The notes below the pieces were generated by a model, which saw nothing but the letters and a program-made list of their open reading frames with translations, did no database searches and was not told the origin of the DNA. Shown piece after piece: positions 32 through 43,847 of a DNA stretch of 64,000 nucleotides. The stretch spans positions 6,247,950 through 6,311,949 of the forward strand of contig OZ025887.1 of NCBI GenBank assembly GCA_964019415.1, read 5' to 3'. This DNA is from Ianthella basta (Eukaryota; Porifera; Demospongiae; Verongiida; Ianthellidae). The translations under genes were made by a program, and so were the position numbers. How positions within the stretch are numbered: the first letter of the stretch is position 1; every line of letters begins with the position of its first letter.

Positions 32-1871
32 GACCACGGGAGTGTATGCGAGGATTCTCCTGAAGATTATTGTGTCTGACATACTCAAGTTCACGGTGAT
101 CTTCTTCATTGTTCTGTACATCTTTATTGGCTCCTTCTATCTGGCCCTGAGGGCTGGGGTGAGTAGCATTGACATGTCAACTGGAGACATCTCATCAGAT
201 ATCGAGGTCTTCAGTTTGGAGACCCTGTGAGCTCTGCATGTAATACATGTGCAAATGTGCACACACACACACACACACATGTACATGTATGTGATGCCAC
301 TCTGTGCAGGTACCCTTGGCATGTAGTGTTCACTGGTATCCGAATCCTGACTGAGTCCGGGGACATCCTTGGTGGTGGCTACTTTGCTAATAATGATGAA
401 GGGCAGTACATTGGCTACCAGTGAGTGTGCTTGTAGTGACGTCATCTGATGTCTGATGTCATCTGATTCTGCCCTTCCCCTTTAAATTACCCCCTTCCCT
501 TCCCCTCCCTCCCTCTCCTCAGGTGGTTCTCTGTTGTCCTGTATCTAATCTTCTTGTTTTTAGTGATTGTGGTCCTGCTGAACCTGCTCATTGCCCAGAT
601 GAGTGACACCTACACTAAAGTACAGGAAGATGTGGAGGGAAACTTTGCAATTGCACGGGCAAGAATCATCTCCAGGCTGCAGAAAGGGAAATGGCTGTTT
701 TGTAAGGAGGTGAGAATCACTTCAATGTGAATTATATTTGTAGGTAGGTACTTAATCTAAACAACACCTGTCTCTTGCCTTGTCGTATGCAGACATACAG
801 GAAGCGCTACTTCCAGAAGCACATTTGGACAGGTTAGTAATGCTTGCTGTTTGAATTGACCAGTTGTGCATGTTTGGCTCCTCTGCTCTCCTCAGAGCTC
901 ACAGATGAAGAGCTGAAACAGGAAGAGCAAGAGGAAGAGGCCGAGGGGAAAGTTGCGTGAGTTGTTCCATTCGAATTACCTACTGTATGTACTCCTTGTG
1001 ATTGGGTGCAGCCAGATAGAGCATGGTGCAGATTTATTGCCAGGTCACCCATGTGTCTTCTCCTTTGTGTTGGGTGCAGTCAGACGGAACAGAAGATTGA
1101 CCGGCTACAAGAAATGGCAGCTGAGAATGCCAGAAGACTTATGAATAGAGAGGATACAGCTCTGCAATATAAGAGGTGTGTGCTGGGATGGTCATGATGG
1201 TATATAAAACCATTCTGTGTGTTCCTCCTTCTGTTGCATGGGTGCAGTCTACTGGCACAGAAGGTTGATCAGCTACAAGAGTTAATGGCTGAGAACTCCA
1301 GAAGACTGCTGAATAGAGAGGATACAGCTCTGCAGTATAAGAGGTGTTTTCTTGAAATGAACATGATGATGTGTTGCCGAGTCACTCTGTTTGTCCTTCT
1401 TCTTGTGTTGGGTGCAGTGTGTTGGAACAGAAGGTGGACCTTCTTACTGAAATGGCAACTCAACGACTGGACAATAGGGAGGATTCAGCTCAGCATATTA
1501 AGAGGTGTTTGTTGGGATGAACATGATGATGTGTTGCTGTATCACCCCATGTCACCTCTTGTGTTGGGTGCAGTCTGCTGGAACAGAAGATTGACCAGAT
1601 GTCAGCTGAATTCACCAGAAAACTGCAGGAGAGAGAGGATGCAGCTCTGCAGTATAACAGGTGTTTGATAGTTGAAATACAATGATGTGTTGCTTTATGT
1701 ATATATAACCTCAAGATTATTCCTTCTTGTGTTGGGTGCAGGCGGCTGGAAGAGAAAATTAAGCGACTTACTGAAGTGACTGCTGAATTGATGGCTGATC
1801 TGACCACAGCTGTGCTGGAGGGTAGGCCTGGCCTTGAAGGAGACCAGGCAGGCGCACATAGCAAACGTTGA
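32..1871 (+). CDS. TRP-type ankyrin channel A, 3' part only
   Basis: The window opens in an intron; the S5 exon follows its acceptor. Core exons seen: 32-226 (S5), 310-420 (pore loop), 523-709 (S6 and post-S6 helix), 793-832 and 896-956, then five C-terminal coiled-coil exons ending at a TGA at 1869-1871. The visible part is about 362 residues. S6 carries LLNLLIAQMSDTY, the TRP-like end of the inner pore helix, and is followed by a basic helix (FAIARARII). The pore exon reads TESGDILGGGYF. Ankyrin and S1-S4 parts lie upstream of the window. By family knowledge this is the pore half of a plasma-membrane cation channel subunit that would assemble as a tetramer. Ligand and ion selectivity cannot be read from the sequence. 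Confidence 0.85.
1080..1871 (+). repeat. Coiled-coil exon array of gene A (5 exons)
   Basis: Exons 1080-1175 and 1248-1343 are 96 nt; 1418-1504 and 1574-1660 are 87 nt; terminal exon 1742-1871 ends in TGA. Every internal exon starts and ends in phase 2 and encodes a variant of LEQKxDxLxEMxAE...RREDxALQYKR. The introns are also alike, with an acceptor context close to TTGGGTGCAG, so exon plus intron was the duplicated unit. Confidence 0.88.
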
Positions 1872-2099
1872 AGTGGCAGTACTGATGGCGACTGTGAAGA
1901 CTGCAATAATTACTATTAACAATTTGCTGCTATAGCAACAAGGCTGCTTAGTAGACATAGATATCTTATTGGAGTGTATATATATACAACTGACAGTACT
2001 TTCCAATATAATATTATGTATTACTAATTTAGTTGTTTGCACATAGCTCACAACTGTAGTTTGAAGATAACAATAGTATACTGTAATACTAATGGTGGA

Positions 2100-2480
2100 A
2101 TGTTGTCATCTGACAGTCACATCTAGGAGAGTTAGGTGTGCAGGTAACAGGATACCAAACTGGCAGACTGTCAACATCTGCAGATGCTGAAATGCTGCAT
2201 GATCTGCTCATAACTGAAGACTGGGACACTGTTGACCATAATACTATAGCCAACAGCAATTTAACCTGTGTCCATGTTGGTCCTGACAGTCTGCAACCTG
2301 CATGTGGTGCATGGTGTTTCTGTGTGATTGGCACACAACATAGACAGTGGTTCTTTGATGTTCCCACTCATACAGAGAGGTTGATGTATGAGAGCACATA
2401 TACACAACCTCAGTCGCTGACATTGCACACATCACAAACTGGCTATACCCTTTCCACACTGCTGCTGCATGCTATTACCT
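2100..2480 (+). repeat. Dispersed 3'-flank element, copy 1
   Basis: This block begins near the end of the 3' flank of gene A and recurs downstream of genes B, C, D and F. It contains an open frame of about 66-116 codons in several copies. The frame is kept only because the copies are recent duplicates, and I see no start context, splice structure or known domain. I treat it as non-coding flank carried along with the channel genes. Confidence 0.6.
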
Positions 2481-2489
2481 TCTATTAAA

Positions 2490-2545
2490 GAAGTTGGTTG
2501 AAAAGACAGCTGAGAATACCAGAAGACCTCTGAACAGAGAGGATG
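2490..2545 (+). pseudogene. Relic of a coiled-coil exon downstream of gene A
   Basis: The stretch matches the 96-nt coiled-coil exon class (ACAGCTGAGAATACCAGAAG followed by a degenerate CTCTGAACAGAGAGGATG). It lies about 620 bp past the stop codon and lacks the usual donor. It looks like an orphaned exon left by contraction of an array. Confidence 0.6.
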
Positions 2546-3250: not shown

Positions 3251-3258
3251 TATTTAAG
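3251..3258 (+). promoter_or_regulatory. TATA-like box of gene B
   Basis: TATTTAAG lies 107 bp upstream of the chosen ATG, at the same distance as in genes C and D and within a conserved block. Confidence 0.5.
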
Positions 3259-3357: not shown

Positions 3358-9717
<6,360 letters not shown>

Positions 9718-10289: not shown

Positions 10290-10361
10290 AAGAAGTTGGT
10301 TGACCAGCTGTAGATGAAAAGGCAGCTGAGAATACCAGAAGACCTCTGAACAGAGAGGATG
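10290..10361 (+). pseudogene. Relic coiled-coil exon downstream of gene B
   Basis: A more complete version of the relic after gene A: AAGTTGGTTGACCAGCTG, then an in-frame TAG, then GCAGCTGAGAATACCAGAAG. It retains the exon's register but lacks normal splice sites. Confidence 0.6.
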
Positions 10362-10934: not shown

Positions 10935-10958
10935 ATGAGCAAAGATGATGCCGAGTGA
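10935..10958 (+). promoter_or_regulatory. Upstream ORF overlapping the start of gene C
   Basis: Seven codons plus TGA overlap the main start in another frame, at the same spacing as in gene B. Confidence 0.5.
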
Positions 10959-13900
10959 GAATGGAAATTACGAAGTTGACATAGAAATGGATGAAATGGG
11001 GAGTGCGGCTGACCTTGTTGATGTGGACTTTCAGCCAATGAAGAAGAAAAAAGAAATAGTGGATCTGCCTTTCAAGGGCAGGTTCAAAAGTATTCTGATG
11101 GAAAACTATGACAAGGAGTTGTGGTGGGTTATGGTTGAAGACCAAATAAAGAAAGATGGTGACTTTGCAGCGAAGGTGAGAGGCAGTTCTGTATTCCTGC
11201 ATACACAGTGTTATGGCTGGCTTAATAACATTGACACACACACACATTGTAGGTTGTAGTGAAGATGCAGGCAGAAGAGGACAAGATGAGGGAGGAGGCC
11301 ATTGTTGAAGTGATGGTAGACCTTCTCCTTGAGATGGAGGGGTTGACAGTGCACAATGGCTTGGTGTATGTGCTGGATGAGGGGCTGGAGAGCTACCCTG
11401 TAAGTGTAGAGGGGAAACACACATTCTTCATTGCACAGCATTGATATTACAAGCACCCTCTCTTATACATAGATGGAGCTCATGGTTGTTGAGCTGCTGA
11501 AGCGTGGGGCAGATCCCAACGAAGAGAGAGGCACAGGTGGGTCCACACCACTCCACCTTGCCATTGTCGAGAATAAAGATCAACTGGTGAAAGCGTTGTT
11601 GGAGAAAGGGGCCCATTTGGAGACCAAGAACGACTATGGCTATACTCCTCTCTTGAAAGCAGTGAAATATGGTGCATCTGAAGAAATAGTTGATCTCATC
11701 CTGGAGCATGGTGCAGATGTGCACATTCTTGCAGAAGATAGGAAGACTGCTCTGCATTTTGCTGCACAGAAGGGCAATGTGATCATGATGAGAAAGATGA
11801 TAGAGAGAGGTCTGTCTGTGGATGCTGAGGACAAAGACGGCTGGACACCGCTCCATGAGGCAGCCTACTATGGGAGTAAGGGTGCAGCTGAAGTTCTCAT
11901 TGAGAATGGTCAGTCGCTGGTCTTACACTTCATGCATGGTGTCTTTCAACTACATTCATCCGCTCACTTATTTGGAATCCCATGTCATCTCATGCCATTG
12001 TCATATCATTGTCATCATCGTGCTATACCATGTCATGTCATGTCATTTTCATTGCTATATCATTGTTATTGTTAATGTCATTGTCATTATCATTGTCATA
12101 ATCATTGTCATTGTCATGTCATGTCATGTCATGTCATTCCCATGTCTGCATATGGAATGGAGAAGTATTTCGAGTAAAGTTTAAGAGAAGAGCACTCGTT
12201 GCTCACAATACATATGTTAGGGACTTGGGATGAGTGTACCAATCAACATCATGGTGAACTAGCCGTCAGTTATGTACGGTGTGTGGTAGTATACTACTCA
12301 GGACAATTACGTACTGTATGTGACAATGTATGAATGACGTCAAATCATTGTGTTACAAGGTTGAATAATACAGCAGGAAAACATGCAATGGAGTACTATT
12401 GAAGTAATTAATTTATGGATGAACTGCTATTGAAATGAATTGAATGAATATTGTACTGGGAAATGAAACAATGGAGAAAAGAAAGTGTTCAAAGGATTTA
12501 GACAAACCCACAGGCCTTTCAACTATTGTGCTAAGCCTTTTGATGCTATTCTCTTGCTAATTGGCACCAATGCAGAGTATCATGGGATGCAATCTCATGT
12601 TACTTCATGAATTAATTGTCTTTCTGTTCACTAACAGTTACTTTTGTATGTATCTTGAAAATGCTCTCATGAATAGCATTGTAAACCTCTCAATGCTATA
12701 AGTTGAATGTGAATTTCATGTATGTACTTGCATGTATGTATGGTATGTGCGTATGTGCATGCAATTCAGAAGTGTGGTTAGTGTGCCAATTGTGTGGCCC
12801 AAGTAAGTGCAGTGATGTCAGTATGATGTCATCAGGCAGTAATACTCACTGTAGTATTGTAGACTGGTGCATGCATGCATGTACACATGTATCTACCACA
12901 CCCAAGCACTGCACTGATTAAGGGCTGCCCTGCGCTCTACCACATTCTGCTCTGCACACCTTACCCACCCTCACTTTCATGACTGTGTGGTCATGCATTC
13001 TTTAGGGGCTTTTGCGAATGCCAGAGATCACAGGAAGCGGACTCCTCTGCATGTGGCAGCCAACGGTGGAGACAAGGAGCTCATTGAATTTCTCCTATGC
13101 AACAAGGCAGATCTCAGTGTGGCTGATTTGGATGGCAACACTCCATTGGACCTTGCTGCCAAGGAGAGGTATGAGGAAGTTGTTAACCTCCTTGTGACCC
13201 AGTCATACTCTTCCAAGAAAGATGATGCAGTGAAGCAGACCATTAAAACTGCCTTGGATTCAGAAAGAGTCAAGGATGACCTTGTCAGACAGAAGATTGG
13301 AGAGATGTCACCAGCTAGGTATGACTTGCAATGAATGCGAGCAGTGCATGTCATGCATGCGTTCTAATTGCCATGCACCTTCATGACCATCTGCCTTCCT
13401 TCCCTTAACATCCACAGTGTTGTCAGCATGTTCAAGCCCAAGGAAAGTGGTGGCAAAGAGGAGTACAAATTCCTTGAGCAGTTTGTCACCAACTCAAAGC
13501 TGAAGGTGATGTAATGCAGACTCACAGGCATGTAACATGAAGTGATCTTTGATTGACATTTCTGAAACAACTCCATGTATTTGTACTTCACCTATAGTCA
13601 CGGATTACATAATTATATAAATGCACTTAATGAGACACTGTAGAATGTCCCCCTTTTCAGCTGAATCAGTCATCGAATGCTTCTTAGCTATGTACATTTA
13701 GTTGGTACTCACCTGCCTGACTCTCCAGAAATCAACCATGGCCATCATGGATCACTTTGTACTGGGCAAGAGACGTGGGCGTGTAAACTGTGAGATTATT
13801 GAGGCTGATGTGAAGGGAACTCCACCAGACCAGGATGACTTTGATGAAAGCAGCCCATCTCTGCTTGATGTCATTGTGGAACAGCAGGACAAGGTGTGAA

Positions 13901-16900
13901 TCCTTAAGTCCGTGTACATTTTAATGTGTTTGCAGTTCTCTCTTGAATTCACTCCTGTAGTGTATTAAAACTGAGTTCAGTATGCATGTAAACTGGGCTG
14001 AGAAGCATCTGACATGTCCTCTCTCATCCACTCTCCCCACCTCAGGAGCTAGCCCAACACCCTTCAATTAAAGCCATATTAGACTACAAATGGAAGACAT
14101 TTGGAAGATGGCTCTTCGTGTGAGTGGTAAACACTACCAGTGGTTATGTTCAGTCATTGTCTTCATTTCGTTGTTGTGCTGTTAAATCATTACATGTTCT
14201 TGCTCTCTCAGCTTTTCCTTCATGGTGTATGCTGTTCGTATGCTGTTCCTTGGACTGGCTCTGCTCATTGCTGCTCGACCTGACCTGGACAACCCTGGCT
14301 GTTACAGAGATGGATGGGACTACTTCAGGGGAGTTTGTGAGGGGATTTCCATCATTCTTTACCTCTTCAAACTTGTTGATGAGCTTCAAGAGATGTTCAG
14401 GTATGTGACTGCACTTGTGATCATTTCTGTGCATGCATCATCAGATAGGTAACTCACCTTCAGCACCCTTTAATGTCAGTGTGTCTCACAATACAAAATT
14501 CTTCCTTTCCAGTTTCCCAAAAGTGTACTTCAAGGACTATTACAACTACATGCAGCTGGTTTCGGTCATCCTGCCTTTCCTCATCATCCCTTTCCGGGCA
14601 GCCACCACATGGTGTGCCTCCACTGGAGATGGCTACTGTGTTGACCCCACTCTCCTGCCAAATTCCACAAATGTCTCCATGGACATCAATGTGGCTTGCA
14701 TCACTGCATCCCATGTCCAGTGGATCATTGCCTCACTGGCCTACATGGCCAATGCCTTTTTGGTCATGGAGTTCCTTGCTCTGTTCAGGTATCTACTGCA
14801 GGCAATTTCTTGTGGTATTCCACAGTACCATTATGGCTCTGTCCTGTCCTTCCCTCTGCAGGATCACGGGTGTTTACACAAGGATTATCTTAAGGATACT
14901 TGTGTCGGACATGCTCAAGTTCATAGTTATCTTCATGGTTGTTCTTTACATCTTTGTTGGATCTTTCTATCTGGCCCTGAGGGCCGGGGTGAAGGGCATC
15001 GACACGTCTACTGGGGACATCACTTCAGACATGGAAGTGTTCAGGCTCCAGACCCTGTGAGTTCTGAATGCAATACGTGTACATATGTGCACACAGGCAC
15101 ACACACACACACATGTATATGCATGTGGTGGCACCCTGTGCAGGTACCCCTGGAATGTCGTGTTCATGGGTATCCGAATCCTGTCTGAGTCTGGAGAAAT
15201 CTTTGATGGTGACTACTTTGCTACTAATATTGAAGGGGAGTACATTGGCTACCAGTGAGTATGCATGTAATGACATCACTGGTCTTTCCAGCCTGGCCCT
15301 GTTATAGAGTGACCCTTCTCCCCTCCTCCCCAGGTGGTTCTCTATTGTCCTGTACCTGGCCTTCCTGTTTGGTGTGATTGTGATCCTGCTGAACCTGCTC
15401 ATTGCCCAAATGAGTGACACCTACACTAAAGTACAGGAAGACGTGGAGGGGACCTTTGCCATTGCAAGGGCTAGAATCATCTCCAGACTACAGAAGGGGA
15501 AATGGCTGTTTTGCAAGGAAGTGAGGAATCACTTTAATGGGTACATGTTTGTGGGTACTTGATGCAAAGATGACCTGTCCCTTGCCTTGTTGTATGCAGA
15601 CATACAGGAAGCGCTACTTCAAGAAGCACATTTGGACAGGTTAGTCATGCTTGTTGTTTGAATTGACCAGTTGTGCATGTTTGGCTCCTTTGCTCTCCTC
15701 AGAGCTCACAGATGAAGAGCTGAAAGAGGACAAGCAAGAAGAAGAGGCTCAGGGGAAAGTTGCGTGAGTTGTTTTATTAGCATAGACACTTCCTGTGTTG
15801 GGCAAAGTCTGATGGAGCAAAGTGGGCTTACTTTATTGAATTTAAGAGTTACATGTGTGTTGGCATTAATTTACTGTAACAGTTGGCTTGCTTTTTTTCT
15901 CCTTAATTGTACGTGCTCAATTTGCAGGGATTGACTTATACATTGCCTGATCACCCATGTGTCTTCCTCCTTGTGTTGGATGCAGTCAGACAGAACAGAA
16001 GATTGACCGGCTACAAGAAATGACAGCTGAATGTTCTAGAAGACTTATGAATAGAGAGGATACAGCTCTGCAGTATAAGAGGTGAGTGCTGGGGTGATCT
16101 TGATATAATGCATGTTGGACTACTCTGTGTGTTCCTCCTTGTGTTGGGTGCAGTCTGCTGGTACAGAAGGTTGGCCGGGTGCAGGAAATAACAGCTGAGA
16201 ATACCAGACGACTGCAGGAGAGAGAGGACACAGCTCTGCAGTATCACAGGTGTGTTTTGAGATGAACATGATGAGGTTTTGCTGTATCACTCCGTTTGTC
16301 ATTCTCCTTGTGTTGGGTGCAGTGTGCTGGAACAGAAGGTTGACCTTCTTACTGAAATGACAGCTCTAGGGCTGGATAGGAGAGAGGGTTCAGCACAGAA
16401 TATTAGAAGGTGCTTGTTGGGGATATGGGCATGATGATGTGTTTGCTGGATCACTCAATGTGTCCTTCTCATGTTGGGTGCAGTGGATTGGAGCAGAAAG
16501 TTGATCACCTTACCGAAATGACAGCTCATCGACTGCAGGATAGAGAGGATTCAGCTCAGACCATCAAGAGGTGCTTATTGTGATGGACATTATGTGCTGC
16601 TGAATCACACTGCATGTACGTATGTATGTATGCCTTCTTACTCGTGTTGGGTGCATGCAGTCTGATGGAACAGAAGGTGGACCACGCTACTGAAATGACG
16701 GTCCAAGGACTGCAGAAGAGGGAGGATTCAGCTCAGCATATCAAGAGGTGTTTGTTGGGATGGACATGATGATGTGTTGCTGTATCACCCCATGTGTCCT
16801 CTTTTGTTGGGTGCAGTTTGTTGGAACAGAAGATTGACCAGATGTCAGTTGAATTCACCAGAAAACTGCAGAAGAGAGAGGACACAGCTCTGGAGTATAA

Positions 16901-17119
16901 CAGGTGTTTGATATTAAGATGAAACACAATGATGTGTTTCAGCATCATTTCATGTGTTCTCCTTCTTGTGTTGTCTGCAGGCTGCTTGAACAAAAGATTC
17001 ACCGACTTACTGAAGTGACTGCTGAATTGATGGCTAATCTGACCAAAGCAGTGCAGAAGGAGGAGGAGGGTGGGACTGGCCCTGAAGGAGACCAGGCAGG
17101 TGCACATAGCAAACCTTGA
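10945..17119 (+). CDS. TRP-type ankyrin-repeat channel C
   Basis: The spliced model gives 1063 residues. Core exons: 10945-11175, 11253-11399, 11473-11908, 13006-13318, 13418-13505, 13729-13893, 14046-14119, 14212-14400, 14513-14788, 14862-15056, 15144-15254, 15334-15520, 15600-15639, 15703-15763; then seven coiled-coil exons. From exon 4 onward it is almost identical to B, and up to exon 5 almost identical to D. The N-terminus differs from B by a lysine-rich stretch (MKKKKEIVDLPFKGRFKS). Ankyrin repeats, S1-S6, glycosylation sequons and pore (SESGEIFDGDYF) are intact. Near-identity with B means short-read mapping would confuse the copies. Expected role: tetrameric plasma-membrane cation channel subunit; stimulus unknown. 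Confidence 0.87.
15986..17119 (+). repeat. Coiled-coil exon array of gene C (7 exons)
   Basis: Exons 15986-16081, 16154-16249, 16323-16409, 16484-16570, 16661-16747, 16817-16903 and terminal 16981-17119, a one-to-one copy of the B array at +7402. The terminal exon differs from B by a few residues (LMANLTKAVQKEEE, ending SKP). Confidence 0.88.
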
Positions 17120-17316
17120 AGTGGCAGTACTGATGGCGACTGTGAAGACTTCAATAATTACTATTAACAATTTGCTGCTATAGCAACAAAACTGCTTCGT
17201 AGATATAGATATCTTGCTGGAGTGTATACAACTGAGAGTACTTTCCATTATTAGATTATATATTAGTTGTTTGCACATAGTTGACATGCAGTTGTAGCTT
17301 GAAGATAGCAATAGTA

Positions 17317-17691
17317 TAATACTAATGGTGGCATATTGACAAGTGACAATCATGATACCAAACTGGCTGACTGTCAACATCTGCAGATGCTGAAATGCTG
17401 CATGATCTGCTCATAACCGAAGACTGGGACACTGTTGACCATAATACTATAGCCAACAGCAATTTAACCTGTGTCCATGTTGGTCCTGACAGTCTGCAAC
17501 CTGCATGTGGTGCATGGTGTTTCTGTGTGATTGGCACACAACATAGACAGTGGTTCTTTGATGTTCCCCACTCATACAGAGAAGTTAATGTATGAGAGCA
17601 CATGCACAACCTCTGTCTGCTGACATTGCACACATCACAAACTGGCTATAGCCTTTCCATGCACACTGCTGCATGTTATTACCTTCTATTG
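17317..17691 (+). repeat. Dispersed 3'-flank element, copy 3
   Basis: Copy of the B 3' flank at +7402. Confidence 0.6.
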
Positions 17692-17763
17692 AAGAAGTTG
17701 GTTGACCAGCTGTAGATGAAAAGGCAGCTGAGAATACCAGAAGACCTCTGAACAGAGAGGATG
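17692..17763 (+). pseudogene. Relic coiled-coil exon downstream of gene C
   Basis: Copy at +7402 of the relic after gene B, with the same in-frame TAG. Confidence 0.6.
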
Positions 17764-18336: not shown

Positions 18337-18360
18337 ATGAGCAAAGATGATGCCGAGTGA
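18337..18360 (+). promoter_or_regulatory. Upstream ORF overlapping the start of gene D
   Basis: Third copy of the seven-codon uORF overlapping the channel start. Confidence 0.5.
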
Positions 18361-28837: not shown

Positions 28838-31800
28838 ATGTCAGTTGAAAATGGTAGATATGCAGTTGGCATTGAAATGGATGAGTTGGAAGAACAAGAC
28901 CACTCAGCCAATGGAGAAGGCAGAACATCCTTCAAGGACAGGTTCAAGAGTATTCTAATGGGCTACAATGATGAGAAGACTTGGTGGGTTGCAGTCGAAG
29001 ACCTGCTTAAGAGAGATGCTGACTTTGCAGAGAAGGTGAGAGGCAGTTCTGTATTCCTGCATACACAGTGATATGGCTGGCTATACCAAATTTGACACAC
29101 ACATGCAGGTTGCAGCGAAAGGGGAGAAGCTGAAAGAGCAGGCCACTGTTGAAGTAATGGTGGACCTCCTCCTTGACATGGAGGGGATCACAATGCATAT
29201 GGGATTGGTGTATGTGCTCATTGAGGAACTGGAGAGCTACCCTGTAAGTGGTGTAGAGAGGGGGAACTGTGTGCACTATAGCATTGATGTCACATGTTAG
29301 CTGTCCCTCTCCCTTTCAGCTGGAGCTCATGGCTATTGAGCTGCTGAAGCGTGGAGCAGACCCCAACAAGGAGAGAGGCACAGGTGGGTCCACACCACTC
29401 CACCTTGCTGTTGCAGAGGAAGAACTGGAGTTGGTGAAGATGCTGCTGAAGAAAGGAGCTCGTTTGGAGAACATGAATGACTATGGCTGTACTCCCTTCT
29501 TGGAAGCAGTGAAATATGTTGCATCTGAAGAAATAGTTGATCTCCTCCTGGAGCATGGTGCAGATGTGCACACTCTCACAGAAGATAGGAAGACTGCTCT
29601 GCATTTTGCTGCACAAAAGAATGATGAGGTCACAATGAGAAAGATGATAGAGAGAGGCCTTTCTGTTGGTGCTGAGGATAAAGACGGTTGTACACCACTC
29701 CACGAGGCAGTCCACTATGGGAGTAAGGGTGCAGCTGAAGTTCTCACAGAGAAAGGTCAGTCTTTGGTGTTTTACGATATAAATCTTCCTAATCTTCCCC
29801 CTGTTGTATTATTGTCCTGTATTGTAAATGTATGTCTTAGGGGAGCACAATCATAGGCAATTTGCGTCTCGTGCAACCCTTTCCCTACGGGGATAAAATC
29901 ATTTCAATTCAATTCAACCAGCTTCATCGACTCATTAATTTCCCTGTGGAATGTCGTGGTTGATAATAGTGCTTAATTTGTGCATGTGCAATTGGGACTG
30001 TACATGTCCTGTGCATGAGAGTCCCACTCCTACTTCAGGTACCATGGTAGGGCTAGCTACGTATGCATGTACACATGTGTGTATGTAGCTATATCTGTGG
30101 ATTGCTTGTGTGTGCATGTATGCATGTATGTATATATGTATGCATATGTATGTATGTATGTATGTATGTATGCATGTGTGTGCGTATGATTGTATGAAAT
30201 CAATGTACATTTAATGTTAAACGGAGCCTGGATGTCTGCTGAGCTATAGCAGGACAAACGGGCACTGGTCCCCAAATTTACCATTCCTACAAGGAAGGTA
30301 TTGAGCCATGTGCCACAGATCACTATCAAGATTGGAGAATGATGACTATATAGAGAGAAGTTACTACTCTGAGCTAACATACCACCCTATAAGAAGAAAA
30401 TGAACTCGTTGCAAAAACTTTCAGAGGATACAATTTCCTACTGAAACCGTAGCATGGCATAGTGATATATAGTTGTGTCAACATAACTGAGTTTCATAAT
30501 TAATTGTGTGCATGGTTGTGCATTCTGTAGGGGCTTCTGTGAATGCCAGAGATCACAGGAAGCGGACTCCTCTGCATGTGGCAGCTGAGGGTGGAGATGA
30601 GGAGCTCATTGCATTACTCCTAGACAGCAAGGCAGATCCCAGTGTGGCTGATCTGGATGGCAACATTCCACTGGACCTTGCTGCCAAGGAGCGTCATGAG
30701 GAAGCTGTCAACCTCCTCTCGATACACTCATACTCTTCAAAGAAAGATGACGCAGTGATGAAGACCTTGGAAAATGCCATGGGTTCTGAAAGGGTCAAGG
30801 ATGACCTTGTTGAAGAGAAGATTGGAGAGATGTCTCCATTCAGGTATGAACTGGAAAGATTTTGGAAAACTTATACTCTCGTGTCACCTCCATGTGCTCT
30901 CCTCCCCCTCCCCTCACCTCCCTCCATCTTTATCTCTCCCTACCTCCTGGCATCCACAGTATTGTTAATATGTTCAAGCCGAAGAAATGTGGTGGCAAGG
31001 AGGAGTACAAGTTCCTTGACCAGTTTGTCATAAACTCAAAGCTCAAGGTGAAGATAACGTGCAAATGTCCAGGTGTAACACATTACGTATGTTGTATCCA
31101 GAATATTATACCAACTGGACTATACACTGTGGCACACGCATGCATCTGGTTGGAATTTTCTAGCAGCTTGTTACCTGTACAAATATTGGTCAGAGTACAT
31201 GCACCACAGCATTAGGCCACTAGACCTATAGATAGGTGACAAGAAGTCTGTTTGTGCATAATTACCAGTCAGCTGGGCTTTAAGGTCAAGCGTTAGCTTA
31301 CCTTCAGCATTCCATACTATTCACAGTGGTCCATTATAAGCCTTGGGCTGTTCAATTTAATGGTTATCTCCATTTACGTTCCATACCACCTAATAAGCTA
31401 TGTACTGAATGGGTTAATTATGAGAATGTCAGTGACTGTCTTCCTCCAGCTTAATCTGAATACAATTTCACTCTCTAGAAATCAACCAAGGCCATCATGG
31501 ACCAGTTTGTACTGGGCAAGAGACGTGGGCGTGTCAACTGTGAGATCATTGAGGCTGACAAGAAGGGAATTCCACCAGACCAGGATGACTTTGATGAAAG
31601 CAGTCCATCTCTGCTTGATGTCATTGTGGAACAGAATGACAAGGTGTGAATCCTTAGTCTGTGTACATTCTAATGTGTTTGAAAGCATATAGCTCACAGT
31701 TCTTCCCCAACCACATACAGGAGCTTGCCCAACACCCTTCAATCAAAGCCATTCTGGACCACAAGTGGAAGACATTTGGGAGATGGCTCTTTGGGTGTGT

Positions 31801-34603
31801 GTGCTCACAATTAGCTTTGTAGAATTCCAAAGCTTTTTGCCAAAATATTGTATTAACATTTGTTTTATGCTATTCTCTGCTCAGCCTTTCCTTGATAGTG
31901 TATGCTGTCCGTATGCTGTTCTTTGGACTGGCTCTGCTCACTGCTGCTCGACCTGACCTGGACAACCCTGGCTGTTACAGAGATGGATGGGACTACTTCA
32001 GGGGAGTTTGTGAAGGGATCTCCATCATTCTCTTCCTTGTCAAACTTGGTGACATGGTTCATGAGATGTTCAGGTATGTGATTGTGTTTCATTGCATCTT
32101 TCGTTATATATGTAGCTGTATATGGCATAGGTACTTTGTCTCATCATTCCTTCAATGCTGATCAATGTTACAGCACACAGTGTGATGTTAATTCTTGCAC
32201 TGCAGTTTTCCAAAGTTGTACTTCAAGGACTACTACAACTACATGCAGCTGCTTGCAGTCATCCTGCCTTTCCTCATCATCCCTTTCCGGGCAGCCACCA
32301 CATGGTGTGCCTCCACTGGAGATGGCTACTGTGTTGACCCCACTCTCCTGTCAAACTCTACAAATGTCTCCTTGAACATCAACATGGCTTGCATTACTGC
32401 ATCCCATGTCCAGTGGATCATTGCCTCACTGGCCTACATGGCCAATGCCATTCTGGTCATGGAGTTCCTTGCTCTGTCCAGGTAACTACCAATGGTGACT
32501 GTGGGGTATCCATGCATGCATAGTACAATGTATGCCTCTGTACCACCACTCTTTCTGCAGGACCACGGGTGTGTATGTGAGGATTCTTCTACGGATAATC
32601 GTATCTGACATGGTCAAGTTCACAGTGATCTTTGTTATCTTTCTGTACATCTTTGTTGGCTCCTTCTATCTGGCCCTGAGGGCTGGGGTGAGTAGCATCG
32701 ACATGTCTACTGGGGACATCATGTCAGATATCGAGGTGTTCAGTTTGGAGACCCTGTGAGTTCTGCATGTGAGACACATGCACATGCAGACACTATTGTA
32801 CAGTACATGTACACACATACAAAACATGCACACACACTGGACCCTGCATGTGAAGTGTGACACATGTGGTGCCACCATGTGCAGGTACCCCTGGCACGTG
32901 TTGTTCACCGGTATTCGAATACTGATGGTTGGAGATGTTATTGGAGACTACTTTGCCGATGATGAAGATGGACAGTACATTGGCTACCAGTGAGTGTGAA
33001 TGCAGTCACATCATCTGGTACTGCCCCATCCATGCAATTAATGTAGTTTAACCCTGGTTGTATGTCAATATAATGGCTTGACTGTCATCCCTTCTCTCCC
33101 TCCTACTCTCAAGGTGGTTCTCCATTGTCTTGTATCTGGTCTTCATGTTTGTTGTAATCGTGATCCTGTTGAACCTGCTGATTGCCCAGATGAGTGACAC
33201 CTATGCTAAAGTACAGGAAGATGTGGAGGGAAACTTTGCCATTGCACGGGCCAGAATCATTGCCAGGCTGCAGAAGGGGAAGTGGCTGCTTTGCAAAGAA
33301 GTAAGGAATCAGTGCTATATTATACAGTATGTACATGTACGTATGTGGGCACTTTATGCAAACATGCATGACTTGTCCCTTGCCTTGTTGTATGCAGACA
33401 TACAGGAAGCGCTACTTCCAGAAGTACGTTTGGACAGGTTAGTCATGCTTGTTGTTTGAATTGACCAGTTGTGCATGTTTGGCTCCTTTGCTCTCCTCAG
33501 AGCTCACAGATGAAGAGCTGAAAGAGGACAAGCAAGAAGAAGAGGCTCAGGGGAAAGTTGCGTGAGTTTTTTTTATTAGCATAGACACTCCCTGTGTTGG
33601 ACAAAGTCTGATGGAGCAAAGTGGGCTTACTTTATTGAATTTAAGAGTTACATGTGTGTTGGCATTAATTTACTGTAACAGTTGGTTTGCCTATGTTTTT
33701 TTTCTCCTTAATTGTACGTGCTCAATTTGCAGAGACTGACTTATACATTGCCTGATCACCCATGTGTCTTTCTCCTTGTGTTGGGTGCAGTCAGACAGAA
33801 CAGAAGATTGACCGGCTACAAGAAATGACAGCTGAATGTTCTAGAAGACTTATGAATAGAGAGGATACAGCTCTGCAGTATAAGAGGTGTGTGCTGGGAT
33901 AATCAAGATGAAACATACTCTGCATGCATGCATCTTTCTCCTTGTGTTGGATGCAGTCTGCTGGTACAGAAGGTTGACCGAGTGCAAGAAATATCAGCTG
34001 AGAATACCAGAAGGATGCTGCATAGAGAGGATACAGCTCTGCAGTATCACAGGTCAATTATTGCAATGGACATGATGATGTGTTGCTGTATTACTCTGTG
34101 TGTCTTCCTCCTTGTGTTGGGTGCAGTGTGCTGGAACAGAAGGTGGACCATGCTACTGAAATGACAGTCCAAGGACTGCAGCAAAGGGAGGATTCAGCTC
34201 AGCATATTAAGAGGTTTTTGTTGGGAGGGACATGATGATGTGCTGCTGTATCACCCCATGTCTCCTCTTGTGTTGGGTGCAGTCTACTAGAGCAGAAGAT
34301 TGACCAAATGTCAGCTGAATTCACCAGGAAACTGCAGAAGAGAGAGGACACAGCTCTGCAATATAACAGGTGTTGTTATAATATAATAGGATGAAACACG
34401 ACAATACACATGTTGATGTATGTATCACCTTATGCACGTGTTCTCCTTCTTGTGCTGTGTGCAGGCTGCTGGAACAGAAAATTAACCAGCTTACTGAAGT
34501 GACTGCTGAATTGATGGCTGATCTGACCAAAGCAGTGCTGAAGGAAGGGGAGGGTGGGCCTGGTCCTGAAGGAGACCAGGCAGGTGCACATGGCAAACAT
34601 TGA
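28838..34603 (+). CDS. TRP-type ankyrin-repeat channel E
   Basis: The spliced model gives 988 residues. Core exons: 28838-29035, 29109-29243, 29320-29755, 30531-30843, 30960-31047, 31479-31643, 31721-31794, 31885-32073, 32206-32481, 32561-32755, 32885-32989, 33114-33300, 33398-33437, 33501-33561; then five coiled-coil exons. Exons 1 and 2 are shorter than in B (66 and 45 codons), in frame, from loss of acidic residues. The pore exon is 105 nt, two codons shorter than in B, and reads LMVGDVIGDYFADDEDGQY. S6 ends LLNLLIAQMSDTY. No uORF is present. Ankyrin repeats and S1-S6 are intact. Predicted plasma-membrane cation channel subunit of the E/F subgroup; pore differences could change permeation (inference). 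Confidence 0.87.
29777..29918 (+). mobile_element. Probable retroposon tail in intron 3 of E
   Basis: This segment interrupts intron sequence that is continuous in F (TTTCACCACAAG... then CAGTTTCATC). It ends in CTACGGGGATAAAATCATTT and an ATTCA-type tail. The layout resembles the 3' end of a 5'-truncated non-LTR element. No reverse transcriptase sequence is present. Confidence 0.45.
30118..30182 (+). repeat. TATG-type microsatellite in intron 3 of E
   Basis: Imperfect tandem TATG/CATG units. Frames across it are not coding. Confidence 0.8.
33791..34603 (+). repeat. Coiled-coil exon array of gene E (5 exons)
   Basis: Exons 33791-33886 and 33957-34052 (96 nt), 34127-34213 and 34283-34369 (87 nt), terminal 34465-34603. 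The third exon combines the start of one B exon type with the end of another (VLEQKVDHATEM...QQREDSAQHIKR). Confidence 0.87.
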
Positions 34604-35470: not shown

Positions 35471-38400
35471 ATGTCAGGTGAAAATGGTAGATACACAGTT
35501 GGCATTGAAATGGATGAGTTGGAGGAACAAGAAGATCCCACAGATCTGGACTGCCAACCAGTGGAGGAAGAGGAGACAGTGGTAGGACCATCCTTCAAGG
35601 ACAGGTTCAAAAGCATTCTGGTGGACTACTACGATGAAAAGACTTGGTGGGTTGCAGTTGAAGACTATCTCAAGAAAGATGGTGACTTTGCAGAGAAGGT
35701 GGGAGCAGTTCTGCATTCCTGCCTGTGCAGTGTTATCCATGCAAGGCTAGCTACGTAAATAATATTGTCACACACTTGTATATATAGGTTGCAGTGAAAT
35801 TGCAAGCAGAAGGAGAGAAACCGAGGGAACAGGTCATTGTTGAAATTATGGTGGACCTCCTCCTCGACATGGAGGGGATCACGGTGCACAATGGATTGGT
35901 GTATGTGCTGGAAGAAGGGTTGGAGAGCTACCCTGTAAGTGGTGAAGAGAGGTGCACTGTAGCTTTGATGTTACAGCTTCTCACTCTTTCTTGCTCAGCT
36001 GGAGCTCATGGCTATTAATCTGCTGAAGCGTGGAGCAGACCCCAACAAAGAGAGAGGCACAGGTGGGTCCACATCACTCCACCTTGCCATTGCAGAGGAA
36101 AGACTGGAGTTGGTAAGGATGCTGCTGGAGAAAGGAGCGTGTTTGGAGACCAAGGATGACTATGGCTGTACTCCCATCTTGGAAGCAGTGAAGTACGGTG
36201 CAGCTGAAGAAATGGTTGATCTCCTCCTGGAGCATGGTGCAGATGTGCACACTCATGCAGAAAATAGAAAGACTGCCCTACACTTTGCTGCACAGAAGGG
36301 TGATGAGGTCACAATGAGAAAGATGATAGAGAGAGGTCTTTCAGTGGGTGCTGGGGACAAAGACGGTTGTACACCACTCCACGAGGCAGCCCACTATGGG
36401 AGTAAGGGTGCAGCTGGAATTCTCATGGAAAAAGGTCAGTCATTGGTGTTTCACCACAAGACTTACAAACCAGTTTCATCAGCTCACATACTTCCTGTGG
36501 GATGTCATAGTGGATAGCAGTGTTAAGTGGGAAGAGCCTGTGAGATCCCACTCTAGGGTCAGGCTGCATGGTAGGGCTATGGAAAGAGGTGGTAGGGTTG
36601 CATGGTAGGGTTTTGTATGTGTGTAGGCATGTATGTTCCAGGCATGCTTGACCCAGCTTTTGAGCCTGGCCTTTTATATGGACAAATACTGCATATTTAT
36701 GTATAGTATGTATATGTACATACCACCACGTGTATGTATGCGTACACCCCCCCATGCACACAATCCCAACTAACTAGCCTGATTGAGTCATGCATAGATT
36801 AGATCAATCAACATATTGCAACCAATAGTGATGCGTGCATGGTGATGGGGTAGAGCTTAGTATGCAAGTGCAATGGATTGTGGTATACCAGAATAGTCAA
36901 AGACATTGGAGGACTCATGCATGTTATTAAACAGTCTGTTCTCGTCATCCACCTCATTAATGAAAATGACTGTGTACATGTAGCTTGGTGTTACAGTAAT
37001 CCATGTCTAGTGCAGTAATTGATATGCTGATGAGTAGGGACTTCTGCAGAACTAGCAAGTGGTACAGGGTGGTACTGTTTCTTGAGCTCACCATTTCCCA
37101 GTATGAGAGTCAGGCACCGATAACACTTAACACTTACATAGGTGTTACAGTTCGCAGAATGAAGTAATGCTCATAGTCAACAAAGCAATGGCAAATTGAC
37201 TAATGAATATTATACACTTGTATCTGGGATTTAGCTAAAAGGCTATTAAACAGAGGATCTGACAATTAGGGACACTTTGACAACATTCCTGCAGCCTGTT
37301 CACCCATGATGCAGTGCTTTGATGAATGACATCATCAGGAAATAATTGCACTCCTGTAGCACACCTGCTGGTGTTACCACCACTCCAAAGTGCTGCACTG
37401 TCCAAAGACCAGCCTTACACACACTACCACTTTCTATTCCATGCACTTCATCTCTCTCACTTTCATGGTTGTATGGTCATGCATGTAGGGTGAAGATCTT
37501 TACACGTACTGTATGAACATGGTTATATACGCACATGTGGCTATTTATACTTGCTGTAGGGGCTTCTGTGAATGCCAGAGATCACAGGAAGCGGACTCCT
37601 CTGCATGTGGCAGCTGAGGGTGGAGATGAGGAGCTCATTGCATTACTCCTGGACAACAAGGCAGACCCCAGTGTGGCAGATCTGGATGGCAACATTCCAC
37701 TGGACCTTGCTGCCAAGGAGCGTCATGAGGAAGCTGTTAACCTCCTCCTGAAGCACTCATACTCTTCAAAGAAAGATGATGCAGTGAAGCAGACCCTGGG
37801 AAATGCTATGGGTTCAGAAAGGGTCAAGGATGACCTTGTTGAAGAGAAGATTGGAGAGATGTCTCCATTCAGGTAAGACCTGGATGAATGTTCTAAGTGC
37901 CCTGTCATGTGCTGCCCTCCCCTCTCCTCACTCCCTCTTCTTCCCCTCTCATCTTTATATCATCTGTAGTATTGTTAACATGTTCAAGCCCAAGAAATGT
38001 GGTGGTAAGGAGGAGTACAAGTTCCTCAAGCACTTTGCCACCAACTCCAAGCTCAAGGTTATAAGATGCACCTGTCCAGGTGTAATACACATAATATTAT
38101 ACTATATAGCCAGAATATCAGCAGTCAGTGCCAACTGGACTAGTATCGTAGCATATGAGTGCATCTGGCATGGATTGCCTGCATTTGCTGGGAATGGATT
38201 GAGCTTAGCCTACTGGACTTTTAGATTCAGCAGTAGTGGTTCAGCTAGTAACATATTTGTTACAAACCTTTTAATCCAACAGGTCAATCTGCTGCATCAT
38301 GCCACTAGACCTAGAGTAAGGTCAGAAACAGTTTGTTTGGACATGTATAAATTCCAGCCAGCTGGGCTTCAAGGTTAAGCTGCTGCTTGCCTTCAGCATT

Positions 38401-41400
38401 CCATGCCAGTGGTCCATTATAACCCTTGGGCCGTTCAACTATGGACACTTTAATGGTTACCTCAATCCACAGTCTGTCACCTCGGAAGCTATGTACATAT
38501 GTATTCAGATGCGTGGGATAAATGATTAATCCTAAGAACATCTGCATGTGACTGTCTTCCTCCAGCCTATAGTCAAATAACACCAATTTACTTTAACTCT
38601 CTAGAAATCAACCAAGGCCATCATGGACCAGTTTGTACTGGGCAAGAGACGTGGGCGTGTCAACTGTGAGATCATTGAGGCTGACATGAAGGGAATTCCA
38701 CCAGATCAGGATGACTTTGATGAAAGCAGTCCATCTCTGCTTGATGTCATTGTGGAACAGAATGACAAGGTGTGAATCCTTAAGTCTGTGTACACTCTAA
38801 TGTGTTTGAAGGGTTCATATTCTCATAGTAGCAGAACTGAGAACTATTCTTGCCAGTATCTCAGTATATGTACAGTACATGCGTTCCAACTTGAACTTTC
38901 AAAGTAGTTCACAGTTCTTCCCCAACCACACACATGTGTGCAGGAGCTTGCCCAACACCCTTCAATCAAAGCCATTCTGGACCACAAGTGGAAGACATTC
39001 GGGAGATGGCTCTTTGGGTGTGTGTGCTTGTATGCGCAATTAGCACACTGTAGTTTGTGTGCCATCATCTATACTTCTGTCAAAATTTTCTGTTATTATA
39101 TAGCATTAATAATTTTGATTTAATAATTTGTTTCATGCTGTTCTCTACTCAGCCTTTCCTTGATAGTGTATGCTGTCCGTATGCTGTTCTTTGGACTGTC
39201 TCTGCTCATTGCTGCTCGACCTGACCTGGACAACCCTGGCTGTTACAGAGATGGATGGGACTACTTCAGGGGAGTTTGTGAGGGGATCTCCATCATTCTC
39301 TTCCTTGTCAAACTTGGTGATTTGATTTATGGAATGTTCAGGTATGTGACTGCGTTTCTATATTTCTTCCATCACATAATGTAGCTATGACATAGGTAAT
39401 AAGTTGGGCTCATTTTCCTAAAAGTTGGTGAGTTTCACAGCCATTATGCAATGTTCTTGTACTGCAGTTTCCCCAAGTTGTTCTTCAAGGACTACTACAA
39501 CTACATGCAGCTGGTTTCGGTCATCCTGCCTTTCCTCATCATTCCTTTCCGGGCAGCCACCACATGGTGTGCCTCCACTGGAGATGGCTACTGTGTTGAC
39601 CCCACTCTCCTGCCAAATTCCACCAATGTTGCTCTGGACATCAACATGGCTTGCATCATGGCATCACAAGTGCAGTGGATCTTTGCCTCACTGGCCTACA
39701 TGGCCAATGCCTTCTTGGTCATGGAGTTCCTTGCTCTGTCCAGGTGACTACCAAAGAAATGTGTGGGGCATTCATGCATGCATAGCATCATGTATGACTT
39801 TGTACCACCACTCTTTCTGCAGGACCACGGGTGTGTATGCGAGGATTCTCGTTCAGATTATTGTGTCTGACATGATCAAGTTCACAGTGATCTTTGTTAT
39901 CTTTCTGTACATCTTTGTTGGTTCCTTCTATCTGGCCCTGAGGGCTGGGGTGAGTAGCATCAACATGTCTACTGGGGACATCATGTCAGATATCGAGGTG
40001 TTCAGTTTGGAGACCCTGTGAGTTCTGCATGTGACACACATACAAAACATGCACACACACTGGACCCTGTGAAGTGTGACACATGTGGTGCCACCATGTG
40101 CAGGTACCCCTGGCATGTGGTGTTCACCGGTATCCGAATACTGATGGTTGGAGATATTTTTGATGGTGGCTACTTCAATGATAATGAAGATGGACAGTAC
40201 ACTGGCTACCAGTGAGTGTGAATGCAGTGACATCATCTGCTCCTACCCCATCCACACAATATAGTTTATATGACCCTGGTTAAATGTCAATAATGGCATA
40301 TTATGACCCATAATCCCTTCTCTCCCCTCCCCTCCCCTCCCCTCTCCTCCCCTCCCTCCCCAGGTGGTTTTCTATTCTCCTTTATCTGGTCTTCATGTTT
40401 GGTGTGATTGTGGTCCTGCTGAACCTGCTCATTGCCCAGATGAGTGACACCTACACTAAAGTACAGGAAGATGTGGAGGGAAACTTTGCCATTGCACGGG
40501 CCAGAATCATTGCCAGGCTGCAGAAGGGGAAGTGGCTGTTTTGTAAGGAGGTGAGGAATCCTGTCAATGCATGAGCATTGATTTGTAGGTAGATACTTAA
40601 TCTAAACAACACCTATCCCTTGCCTTGTCGTATGCAGACATACAGGAAGCGCTACTTCAAGAAGTACATTTGGACAGGTTAGTCATGCTTGTTGTTTGAA
40701 TTGACAAGTTGTGCATGTTTGGCTCCTTGTCTCCTCAGAGCTCACAGATGAAGAGCTGAAAGAGGACAAGCAAGAAGAAGAGGCTCAGGGGAAAGTTGCG
40801 TGAGTTGCTATATTGCATACAAATATGATGGCCAGATCATTATACACCGCAGATATCTGCAGATCAAGAGGTGTTCACTAGGAATAGATACAATTTTAGT
40901 GAATTATTCCATGTGTCTTCCTCCTTGTGTTGGGTGCAGTCAGTCAGAACAGAAGATTGACCGACTACAAGAAATGACAGCTGAGAATGCCAGAAGACTG
41001 GAACAGAGAGAGGATACAGCTCTGGAGTACAAGAGGTATGTGTTGGGATGGACTGAATGATGTGTTGCTGTATCACTCTGTCTGTCCTGTTCCTTGTGCA
41101 TGGTTTAGTCATATGATACAGATGGTCGAGCAGATGGCAGCTGAACTCAGCAGAAAATTGCTGAAGAGGGAAGATACAGCTCTGCAGTATAAGAGGTGTG
41201 TGTTATAAAGGTCAAGATGTGTTCTTGTACCACCCCATGTCTCCTCCTCCTTGTGTTGGGTGCAGTCTGCTGGAACAGAAAGTGGATGAACTAAATGTAA
41301 AGACTGCTGAGAATGCCAGAAGACTGCAGGAGAGAGAGGATAAAGCTCTGCAGTATAAGAGGTGCTCGTTGGGATGGACATGATGTGTCACAGTATCACC

Positions 41401-41550
41401 CATGCATGCATGCTTCCTCCTCCTATTATTTGGTACAGTATGCTGGAACAGAAGATTGACTGGCTCACTGAACTGACTACTGAACTGGCCAGAAAGCTGG
41501 AAGGTGGTCCTGACTCTGGAGGAGACAAGGCAGGCCCACATAGCAAGTGA
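35471..41550 (+). CDS. TRP-type ankyrin-repeat channel F
   Basis: The spliced model gives 965 residues. Core exons: 35471-35698, 35788-35934, 35999-36434, 37560-37872, 37970-38057, 38605-38769, 38944-39017, 39153-39341, 39468-39743, 39823-40017, 40104-40211, 40364-40550, 40638-40677, 40739-40799; then four coiled-coil exons. The start is the ATG in AACAATGTCAGGTG, matching E, G and H. The N-terminus is acidic (DELEEQEDPTDLDC). The pore exon is 108 nt and reads LMVGDIFDGGYFNDNEDGQY. S1-S6, S3-S4 sequon and post-S6 helix are intact. A region of about 1.1 kb between exons 3 and 4 holds no exon I can see. Closest to E in promoter and sequence. Confidence 0.87.
40940..41550 (+). repeat. Coiled-coil exon array of gene F (4 exons)
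   Basis: Exons 40940-41035 (96 nt), 41109-41195 (87 nt), 41266-41361 (96 nt) and terminal 41439-41550. The second exon is atypical (HMIQMVEQMAAELSRKLLKR) and its acceptor lacks the usual GGGTGCAG context. Confidence 0.85.
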
Positions 41551-41825
41551 AGAAGTGGCAATTCTGAGGGCGACTGCAAAGATTGATCAATTACAATTAA
41601 AAATTAACACTTTGCTGCTGTTGTAGTGTGGCTGCCTAGAGTGCAGACACAGACAGACACAGATATCTGCTGTTGTAGCTGAGAGTATATTCCTTTGTAA
41701 GATTACGTATTGCTATTATAATTACATGTAGTGCACATCTGTAACTGGAAGATGTATTGATATCATTATAGCTATGTAAATTAAGATGAAGTTGCAGGCC
41801 ATCACAGATGTCTCACTGTCTAACC

Positions 41826-42110
41826 AGTCCTCATCCTGCATGTCCACATTGACATGTGACAATCACATCCGGGAGAGTTAGGTGTGCAGGTAACGTGATA
41901 CCAAACTGGCAGACTGTCAACATCTGCAGATGCTGAAATGGTGCATGATCTGCTCATAACCAATTCCTGAAGGCTAGCTGCATGGGGTGAACAGTGTTGA
42001 CCGTACATGTTGAACTAGCCCATGCACAGTAACCTGTGTACTTGTTGGTCCTGACAGTCTGGTCCACAACCTGCATGTGTGTGCATGGTGTTTCTGTGTG
42101 ACAGGCACAT
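41826..42110 (+). repeat. Dispersed 3'-flank element, copy 5 (diverged)
   Basis: Shares TGATACCAAACTGGCAGACT and following bases with the flanks of A-D. It then diverges around 41960, where an unrelated stretch interrupts the match, and resumes near GTTGGTCCTGACAGTCTG. Confidence 0.5.
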
Positions 42111-42279
42111 GACATTTGTACTGTTGGCTGCATTTGCACTAAGTTCTTTCAATTCAGGAGCATTTTCATTCAACTATCAAGGAGGGATGTAGTTGGAGAC
42201 TCATTGAAGTGCACGTGGTGCTTTGATGTATTATGTCATCAGATGCATTCTCTGTCACACTGCACGCAACCGTTCCAAC

Positions 42280-42410
42280 TGTCTTACCCTACCACCTTCT
42301 GCTGCTCGCATCCCACACATCCGCGTTTGTATGGTTGTTGGCCATGCATGTACTGTAGGTGCCTGACAGCATGCAAACTTGCCAGCATGTGGCAGCTGAG
42401 GCGATACAGT
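42280..42410 (+). pseudogene. Relic of the intron 3/exon 4 junction
   Basis: CCACCTTCTGCTGCTCGCAT, then CCATGCATGTACTGTAGGTG, then CCAGCATGTGGCAGCTGAGG match the end of intron 3 and start of exon 4, with deletions. Confidence 0.5.
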
Positions 42411-42800
42411 GCTGTATATACGCCATAGTGAACAATGCTGTCTGCCAAGTAGCTTGCATGCAAATAGTGTTATACGGTTTCTTCAGCAATGGCAGGTTGT
42501 TTGTACAACCTGGTATGCGTGTACTTGTCATTGGATTCCTACCGAGAGACGTACACTACCACCTCCTGGCTAGGAGGTGAAGGCATCCAGTGATAGACTG
42601 TTTGATGTGAATGAACCAATGAATGAACCAATGTTTGTGTGTGTGTGTGCTAACAGCCTCTCTCAATAGCAGCAACAACTACTCATTATGCAGTGTCAGA
42701 AATCTGTGTATGATTTGGTGACAGATCTGAGGGTATAAAGTACAGTTGGAAATGGATGAAGTGATAGTCGTTACTACCTGCAATGTCACCTGCTTCATCA
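42411..42800. other. Intergenic region between convergent genes F and G
   Basis: Only a short GT run near 42636 is notable. Confidence 0.4.
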
Positions 42801-43847
42801 TCATGTGTCGGCATTATCCATGCCATCTTTCTCTGCCTCGTCCCCTCCAACAGTGCTTGCAACCCTACATTCCTCCCAAATCTTCAGCAGTTTTCTGTCC
42901 AGTTCAGCTGTCATTTCAGAAAGCTGGTCAATCTTCTGTTCCACCAGGCTGCACCCATAAGAATGAGGAGTACATGTGAGGTGATACAGCAACACATAGC
43001 CTCTATCTCTGTTTGTGCTAACACCTCTTATACTGCAGAGCTGTATCCTCTACATTATGTAGTCTTCTGGTGTTTTCAGCTGTCAGTCCACTAAGGTCAT
43101 CGACCTTCTGTTCCAACTGACTGCACCCAACACAAGGAGGAGGAAACACAGCATACATATGTAGCAATAAAGCAACACATCATTACATTGACCCAACAAG
43201 CACCTCTTATACTGCAGAGCTGTATCCTCTCTCTTCTGAAGTCTTCTGCTGTTTTCAGTAGTCACTTCATTAAGCTGGTGAATCTGCTGTTCTGTCAGAC
43301 TGCACCCAACACAAAGAGGAGGACACACGGGTGAAGTGATACAGCAACACATCACCATGCATGTCTACATAAACACCAGCACACACTTCTTATACTGCAG
43401 AGCTGTGTCTTCTCTCTTCTGAAGTCTTCTAGTATTTTCAGTAGTTACTTCGTTTAGCCGGTCAACCTTCTGTTCCATCACACTGCACATGCAGACCCAA
43501 GAATAAATAAAGCTACATGCACATGAAGGTATATATGACCAGCAACATATCATATCTGTCCATCTCAGTGAATACCTGGCAAATTGTAGAACAGTATCCT
43601 CCCACTTTAGCAACCTTCTGGTATTTTCAAACATCATTTCTGTTAGTCGATCAACCTTCTGTTCCACCACACTGCACCCAACACAAGGAGGAGGGCAAAT
43701 GTTTGGGGTGATTTGGCAAAGCATCATGTTCATCTCAACTCATTCCTGCACCTCTTATAGTACAAAGCCGTGTCCTCCCTCTTCAACAGTCTCCTGCCAT
43801 TTTCAGCAGTCAGTTCTTTTAGCCGGTGGATGTTCTGTTCCAGCAGG
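42801..43847 (-). repeat. Coiled-coil exon array of gene G (6 exons)
   Basis: Exons 43847-43752, 43671-43576, 43482-43387, 43299-43204 and 43120-43025 are all 96 nt; terminal 42948-42801. The 87-nt class is absent. The third exon ends AA instead of AG before its donor, changing the junction residue. Confidence 0.86.

Follow-up and report, generated by a model that had tools for sequence, protein, structure and literature searches.

C-terminal coiled coils are found in PKD2L1, TRPM and TRPC channels, where they have a fixed length. TRPV channels, such as Drosophila Inactive and vertebrate TRPV1-6, combine N-terminal ankyrin repeats with a six-helix channel, and we know of no C-terminal coiled-coil exon array among them. 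The stretch of DNA from the sponge Ianthella basta analysed here (64,000 nt; contig OZ025887.1, positions 6,247,950 to 6,311,949, forward strand; hereafter the window) holds eight related TRPV-like channel genes, A to H, most of which end in tandem arrays of short exons encoding a probable coiled-coil-type helix. Unlike fixed-length TRP coils, the tails of these paralogues comprise 1 to 10 exon-encoded segments each. They resemble TRP channels with C-terminal coils, as reported for PKD2L1 (PMC4377555), in placing a putative oligomerisation-capable helix downstream of the pore. The reading we favour, and hold somewhat likelier true than false, is that tandem TRPV-like channels carry a length-variable helical tail of coiled-coil type with all units included, and that tail length is a difference between paralogues.

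The genomic arrangement has a described parallel in the leucine-rich repeat (LRR) genes of Tetrahymena, which are reported to contain tandem 90-bp exons of equal length, with nearly all introns in phase 2, a highly variable copy number and evidence for ectopic recombination between paralogues, the proposed cause (PMC6564038). There the unit is a leucine-rich repeat and the setting is thousands of genes in ciliates; the sponge arrays differ in encoding a helix that ends a TRPV-like channel, in tens of genes and in two main unit lengths. Because the Tetrahymena exon arrays are published, we count the genomic mechanism as already known, and the ion-channel case is the new part. No comparable exon array in any ion channel was found in the literature searched, whose coverage excludes most subscription journals. 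A large TRP gene expansion in an early animal lineage is likewise reported for the demosponge Ephydatia, where it is assigned to TRPA and TRPML, with no mention of tail exons in the available part of that report (PMC7385117).

Tandem tail exons in a family of TRPV-like channels

A hand-read model of gene B was aligned with splice sites against the rest of the window to obtain the gene set. Gene G is encoded on the minus strand and the seven others on the plus strand; A is represented by its 3' part only, and B-H each have 14 shared core exons without a stop codon in the spliced alignment. The gene models bear out the first-pass annotation, which had seen tandem exons of phase 2-2 at the end of seven of eight TRP-type genes. 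Its exon totals (A 5, B 7, C 7, D 10, E 5, F 4, G 6, H 1) are exact when the terminal exon is counted, the total for D spanning a 200-N gap (24084..24283). Unit lengths of 96 or 87 nt, also proposed there, apply to 36 of the 37 internal units in the window (17 of 96 nt and 19 of 87 nt), and fail for a single 45-nt unit in D. With its intron, the repeated unit measures ~155-190 bp.

These tails belong to a larger family. A channel-domain search of the same genome gave 181 matches, from which loci whose S6 exon was at least 58% identical were kept; there are at least 31 such loci among the matches listed, the eight window genes included. Tails are readable at 27 of the 31 (L004 and L005, both with N stretches, were left out, as were L022 and L023), and 11 more distant relatives lie outside the sample. 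As in Tetrahymena, near-uniform units are repeated a variable number of times: tail exons number 4 to 10 in 17 of the 27 genes, and phase 2-2 exons of 96 nt (43) or 87 nt (47) make up 90 of the 92 internal units, the others being one of 93 nt and one of 45 nt. Nine genes have a single tail exon and L007 has two, a doubtful count given that its first tail exon may itself be terminal. Exons were listed by the scan only when bounded by GT/AG, a multiple of three nucleotides long and open in phase 2, which means that the phase was imposed and that any broken unit would have been missed. As a check, selected gaps in 18 tails were searched less strictly, and no broken unit turned up inside an array. 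Pfam gave no LRR family match for the tails of B and L008, and only weak unrelated matches; one of these, Cdc6_lid (27.2 bits, slightly over the cut-off of 27), was taken as chance.

The module is nearly confined to the surveyed loci among 71 and 51 genome matches with E up to 1. Unit-like matches outside them lie at C22:2640024-2640422 and C23:3962507-3962584, the latter with a stop, and could be partial or decayed arrays.

The N-terminus of gene B matches Pfam Ank_2 (7e-43), with Ank in six stretches, in keeping with the roughly six repeats of TRPV channels. Gene B alone scores 23.9 for Ion_trans, slightly below the cut-off of 25. A channel-domain profile of five paralogues, compared with solved structures, finds the six-helix domain nearest to TRPV channels: it ranks Drosophila Inactive first (1.5e-11), then TRPV3 (2.6e-7) and TRPV1 (2.8e-7), then NOMPC (1.2e-6). 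Because of this ranking we prefer 'TRPV-like', judged by profile similarity the more precise label, to 'TRP-type' for genes A-H.

In a 30-row protein tree of this genome's paralogues, the array-bearing genes make up three groups with support. One of 10 rows comprises the main cluster and C22, another G together with L008, and the third, of 5 rows, lies at C20 4.97-5.02 Mb. Tails of one exon are seen in L018/L019, L010/L011, the C3 group, L009 and H, and L018/L019 are deepest under midpoint rooting, which served for drawing only. A single coil exon as the ancestral state would be the simpler reading. In six of the nine single-exon genes (H, L010, L011, L017, L020 and L021) the protein ends in an acidic stretch bearing a WSD motif; the 18 remaining genes whose tails could be read, L007 among them, all lack such an ending (Fisher p 0.0003, no kinship correction). 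The long coil and the acidic WSD tail seem to be alternative tail designs.

Apparent exchange of array blocks between paralogues

Exons have been duplicated together with their introns, as the first-pass annotation had proposed: 39 of 63 adjacent intron pairs within arrays are homologous, compared with 6 of 280 controls. Its description of a modular, frame-neutral array also stands, the units being phase 2-2 and copy number quick to change between C and D, which have 7 and 10 tail exons at a core synonymous divergence (dS) of 0.06. The three-unit difference between them lies wholly after D's N gap. Blocks of units are shared between genes as well. Units 3-6 of B and units 4-7 of L001 differ at 15 of 581 columns, introns included, while the two genes have 74% core synonymous identity and, around this block, 74-84% identity in nearby exons, 80% and 67% in flanking introns and 66% in the terminal exon. 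The tails of B and C are 99.4% identical, B, C and D have most units in common, and gene C (10945-17763) is a mosaic whose 5' part is D-like, whose middle and most of whose tail are B-like, and whose end is again D-like. By these comparisons, paralogues evidently trade array blocks, and their arrays become homogenised. Phase 2-2 units, homologous introns, varying copy number and blocks shared despite diverged cores fit unequal crossing-over and gene conversion among the exon-intron repeats.

The same recombination could act without consequence for the animal. If unequal crossing-over alters the arrays and only breaking changes are purged, length would vary without function, and the rapid change between C and D, the mosaic structure of C, the shortened unit in D and the decayed remnants of coiled-coil units that follow A, B and C, which are identical across 37 nt, are all what such neutral drift would leave. 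Against it, the arrays have been retained in three supported clades, and the units themselves are under selection. The ratio of nonsynonymous to synonymous divergence (dN/dS) is 0.11-0.57 for units compared between paralogue arrays (11 gene pairs of our choosing, nearest equal-length units matched) and 0.32 within arrays (90 pairs with <35% differences). Because of these ratios we regard the units as constrained coding sequence under purifying selection, as far as substitution patterns tell, a conclusion with no bearing on unit number. Drift in unit number is possible, and we give it a substantial minority share of our belief.

Collapsed or expanded repeats in the assembly might also produce copy-number differences, and the N gap within the D array and the near-identity of the B and C tails invite that suspicion. 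Units and introns inside one gene differ from each other, however, and 17 loci, spread over the contigs C20, C22 and C23, have arrays of at least four exons. An assembly artefact is unlikely for the family as a whole, and we give it next to no weight as the source of the differences.

Predicted helical geometry of the tails

The first-pass annotation had envisaged a coil continuous across exon junctions and proposed following the heptad register over them. When this is done, the strict register is lost between units: power at the heptad period of 3.5 is low (0.4-2.7) in nine of nine arrays. What persists is a hydrophobic stripe, with a peak period of 3.55-3.66 in all nine, and because this is the period rather than 3.5, each unit would add a stutter or skip. 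The periodicity exceeds a repeat-preserving null, in which unit columns are permuted and the repeat kept, at p<0.05, uncorrected, in eight of nine arrays (the two sets share eight arrays, L003 being only in the periodicity set and L015 only in the null set). An undistorted helix is reported to have 3.63 residues per turn, with stutters tolerated; among insertions into coiled coils, 4 (32 mod 7) is described as well understood, 1 (29 mod 7) as more demanding, and 2 or 6 as helix-breaking (PMC4786415). On that 3.63-residue turn, 29 residues give 7.99 turns and 32 residues 8.82; with only two main lengths, this closeness to whole turns agrees with the geometry but cannot serve as a statistical test. 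The 29-residue units are of two types, and because these seem to be three residues short at different sites, the data suggest that this length arose more than once.

A COILS-type score, with weights and a threshold that we supplied, beats the shuffled mean in all 12 tails scored and the best of 20 shuffles in six of them (D, E, H, L001, L008 and L016). Because it tops the best shuffle in just six of the 12, we grade the tails as likely, not proven, coiled coil.

A number of points weigh against a helical tail of this kind. For A, B, F, G, L003 and L013 the score is equalled or beaten by at least one of the 20 shuffles, and L008, with eight 32-residue units, does not rise above the repeat-preserving null (p=0.152). 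Drawn as a straight helix, L013 is the sole array of six inspected with an in-line hydrophobic face, the faces of its six mixed 32- and 29-residue units being aligned within ~20 degrees at 3.6 residues per turn; in L008 and G each unit rotates the face steadily, by ~31-75 degrees, and its wandering spans ~126 degrees in B, 156 in L001 and still more in D. Polar residues T13 and N16 stand at presumed core positions, and L003 has one 31-residue unit with prolines. Unit inclusion and the oligomer state are predictions from genomic sequence, and tail length may be neutral.

Possible roles of a length-variable tail

Gain or loss of a unit keeps the reading frame and, in a helical tail, changes its length by nearly whole turns. 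With all units spliced in, the tails may associate as a rod beneath the tetrameric channel, its length differing between paralogues (where there are at least four tail exons, the internal units sum to ~90 to 256 residues), and such a rod could serve as a spacer, stalk or oligomer stabiliser rather than a partner-specific code. A more tentative extension, to which we give rather poor chances, is a quantised molecular ruler. Gain, loss or exchange of one exon-intron module would lengthen an intracellular coiled-coil rod in fixed steps of ~8 or 9 turns (~4-5 nm per unit at 0.15 nm per residue), so that a single animal would have channels graded mainly by the reach of their tails.

The first-pass annotation had instead suggested an assembly code, with the array determining by its length and sequence which paralogues co-assemble. 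Array length does vary among paralogues, and the C-terminal coiled coil of PKD2L1 is reported to be important for assembly, although PKD2L1 channel function is also reported without that coil (PMC4377555). The suggestion was not borne out. Exchange of modules among paralogues with diverged cores weakens a pairing code, since B and L001 hold near-identical blocks and B, C and D most units in common. Such a code should also diversify the e, g, a and d positions, so the finding that in 32-residue units the outward f positions, and not e/g, are least variable (0.90 bits vs 1.33-1.97 elsewhere) weighs against it, although this result is only suggestive (p=0.07). We consider a code of this kind distinctly improbable. 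The low variability at f, unusual for a simple coil, hints at a job for the outer face.

For a helical tail of variable length, exon length and phase may be set by helix geometry besides the reading frame, so that repeat recombination would give working proteins, and the members of an ion-channel family could come to differ in the length of their tails, not just in pore sequence. Should length prove to matter, this genome would offer a natural experiment, with nine paralogues of one tail exon and 17 of 4 to 10.

Splicing of the array

Frame-neutral units might also behave as cassettes, their tissue-dependent skipping or choice tuning the tail. Donor sites give this idea some colour: a G at position +5 is present in 22 of 92 array donors and 277 of 349 core donors (p 8e-23, units not independent), and the consensus match is lower in array donors (5.47 vs 6.05 of 9). 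U1 duplex energy does not differ between array and core donors, however (p=0.41), the units are under constraint, and array introns in the window are short (median 74 nt); short introns usually accompany intron definition. On these sequence features we regard an alternatively spliced array as unlikely.

A further GT lies in phase 9 nt from the end of several 96-nt units (for example 1248-1343) and would in principle allow an 87-nt splice version. The acceptor region (last 20 nt of array introns) is very uniform, roughly CTTGTGTTGGGTGCAG, as read in most of 119 tail-exon acceptors.

Features of the window

Table 1. Positions of channel gene cores, tail exons and associated features in the window (lengths in nt)
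Feature	Positions	Strand	Details
Gene A core	30..954	+	last 5 of 14 exons; cut by window start
Gene A tail	1080..1871	+	1080-1175 (96), 1248-1343 (96), 1418-1504 (87), 1574-1660 (87), terminal 1742-1871
Gene B core	3358..8361	+	ankyrin repeats and TRPV-like six-helix channel; 14 exons
Gene B tail	8584..9717	+	units 1-3: 96 (8584-8679), 96 (8752-8847), 87 (8921-9007); units 4-6: 87 (9082-9168), 87 (9259-9345), 87 (9415-9501); terminal 9579-9717
Four-unit block of gene B	8921..9501	+	units 3-6 with introns; matches L001 units 4-7
Gene C core	10945..15763	+	14 exons; D-like/B-like mosaic
Gene C tail	15986..17119	+	96, 96, 87, 87, 87, 87, terminal 16981-17119
Gene D core	18347..23230	+	14 exons
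Gene D tail	23457..25224	+	96, 96, 87 x5, 45, 87, terminal 25086-25224
Assembly gap	24084..24283		200 N; in an intron of the gene D array
Shortened unit, gene D	24808..24852	+	45; 15 residues, 14 fewer than 29-residue neighbours
Gene E core	28838..33561	+	14 exons
Gene E tail	33791..34603	+	96, 96, 87, 87, terminal 34465-34603
Gene F core	35471..40799	+	14 exons
Gene F tail	40940..41550	+	96, 87, 96, terminal 41439-41550
Gene G core	43969..48048	-	14 exons as aligned; first and last exon ends approximate
Gene G tail	42801..43847	-	96 x5: 43752-43847, 43576-43671, 43387-43482, 43204-43299, 43025-43120; terminal 42801-42948
Gene H core	53992..58564	+	14 exons as aligned; last exon end approximate
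Gene H terminal exon	58767..59223	+	single; one coil segment, then long acidic tail with WSD motif
Decayed unit remnants 3' of A, B, C	2509..2545, 10325..10361, 17727..17763	+	

Amid the channel genes lies a gene for an FMN-dependent dehydrogenase (50008-52084, minus strand; PF01070 5e-60 for 51254-52084), adjoined by a long TG/CA repeat. A putative further gene start 3' of H (~59400-64000, plus strand) resembles a MYST-type acetyltransferase by eye only. Elsewhere in the genome, innexin-family matches at C10:4951318 and C10:4966959 (E ~5e-5) lie slightly above the cut-off; to our knowledge, innexins would be unexpected in a sponge.

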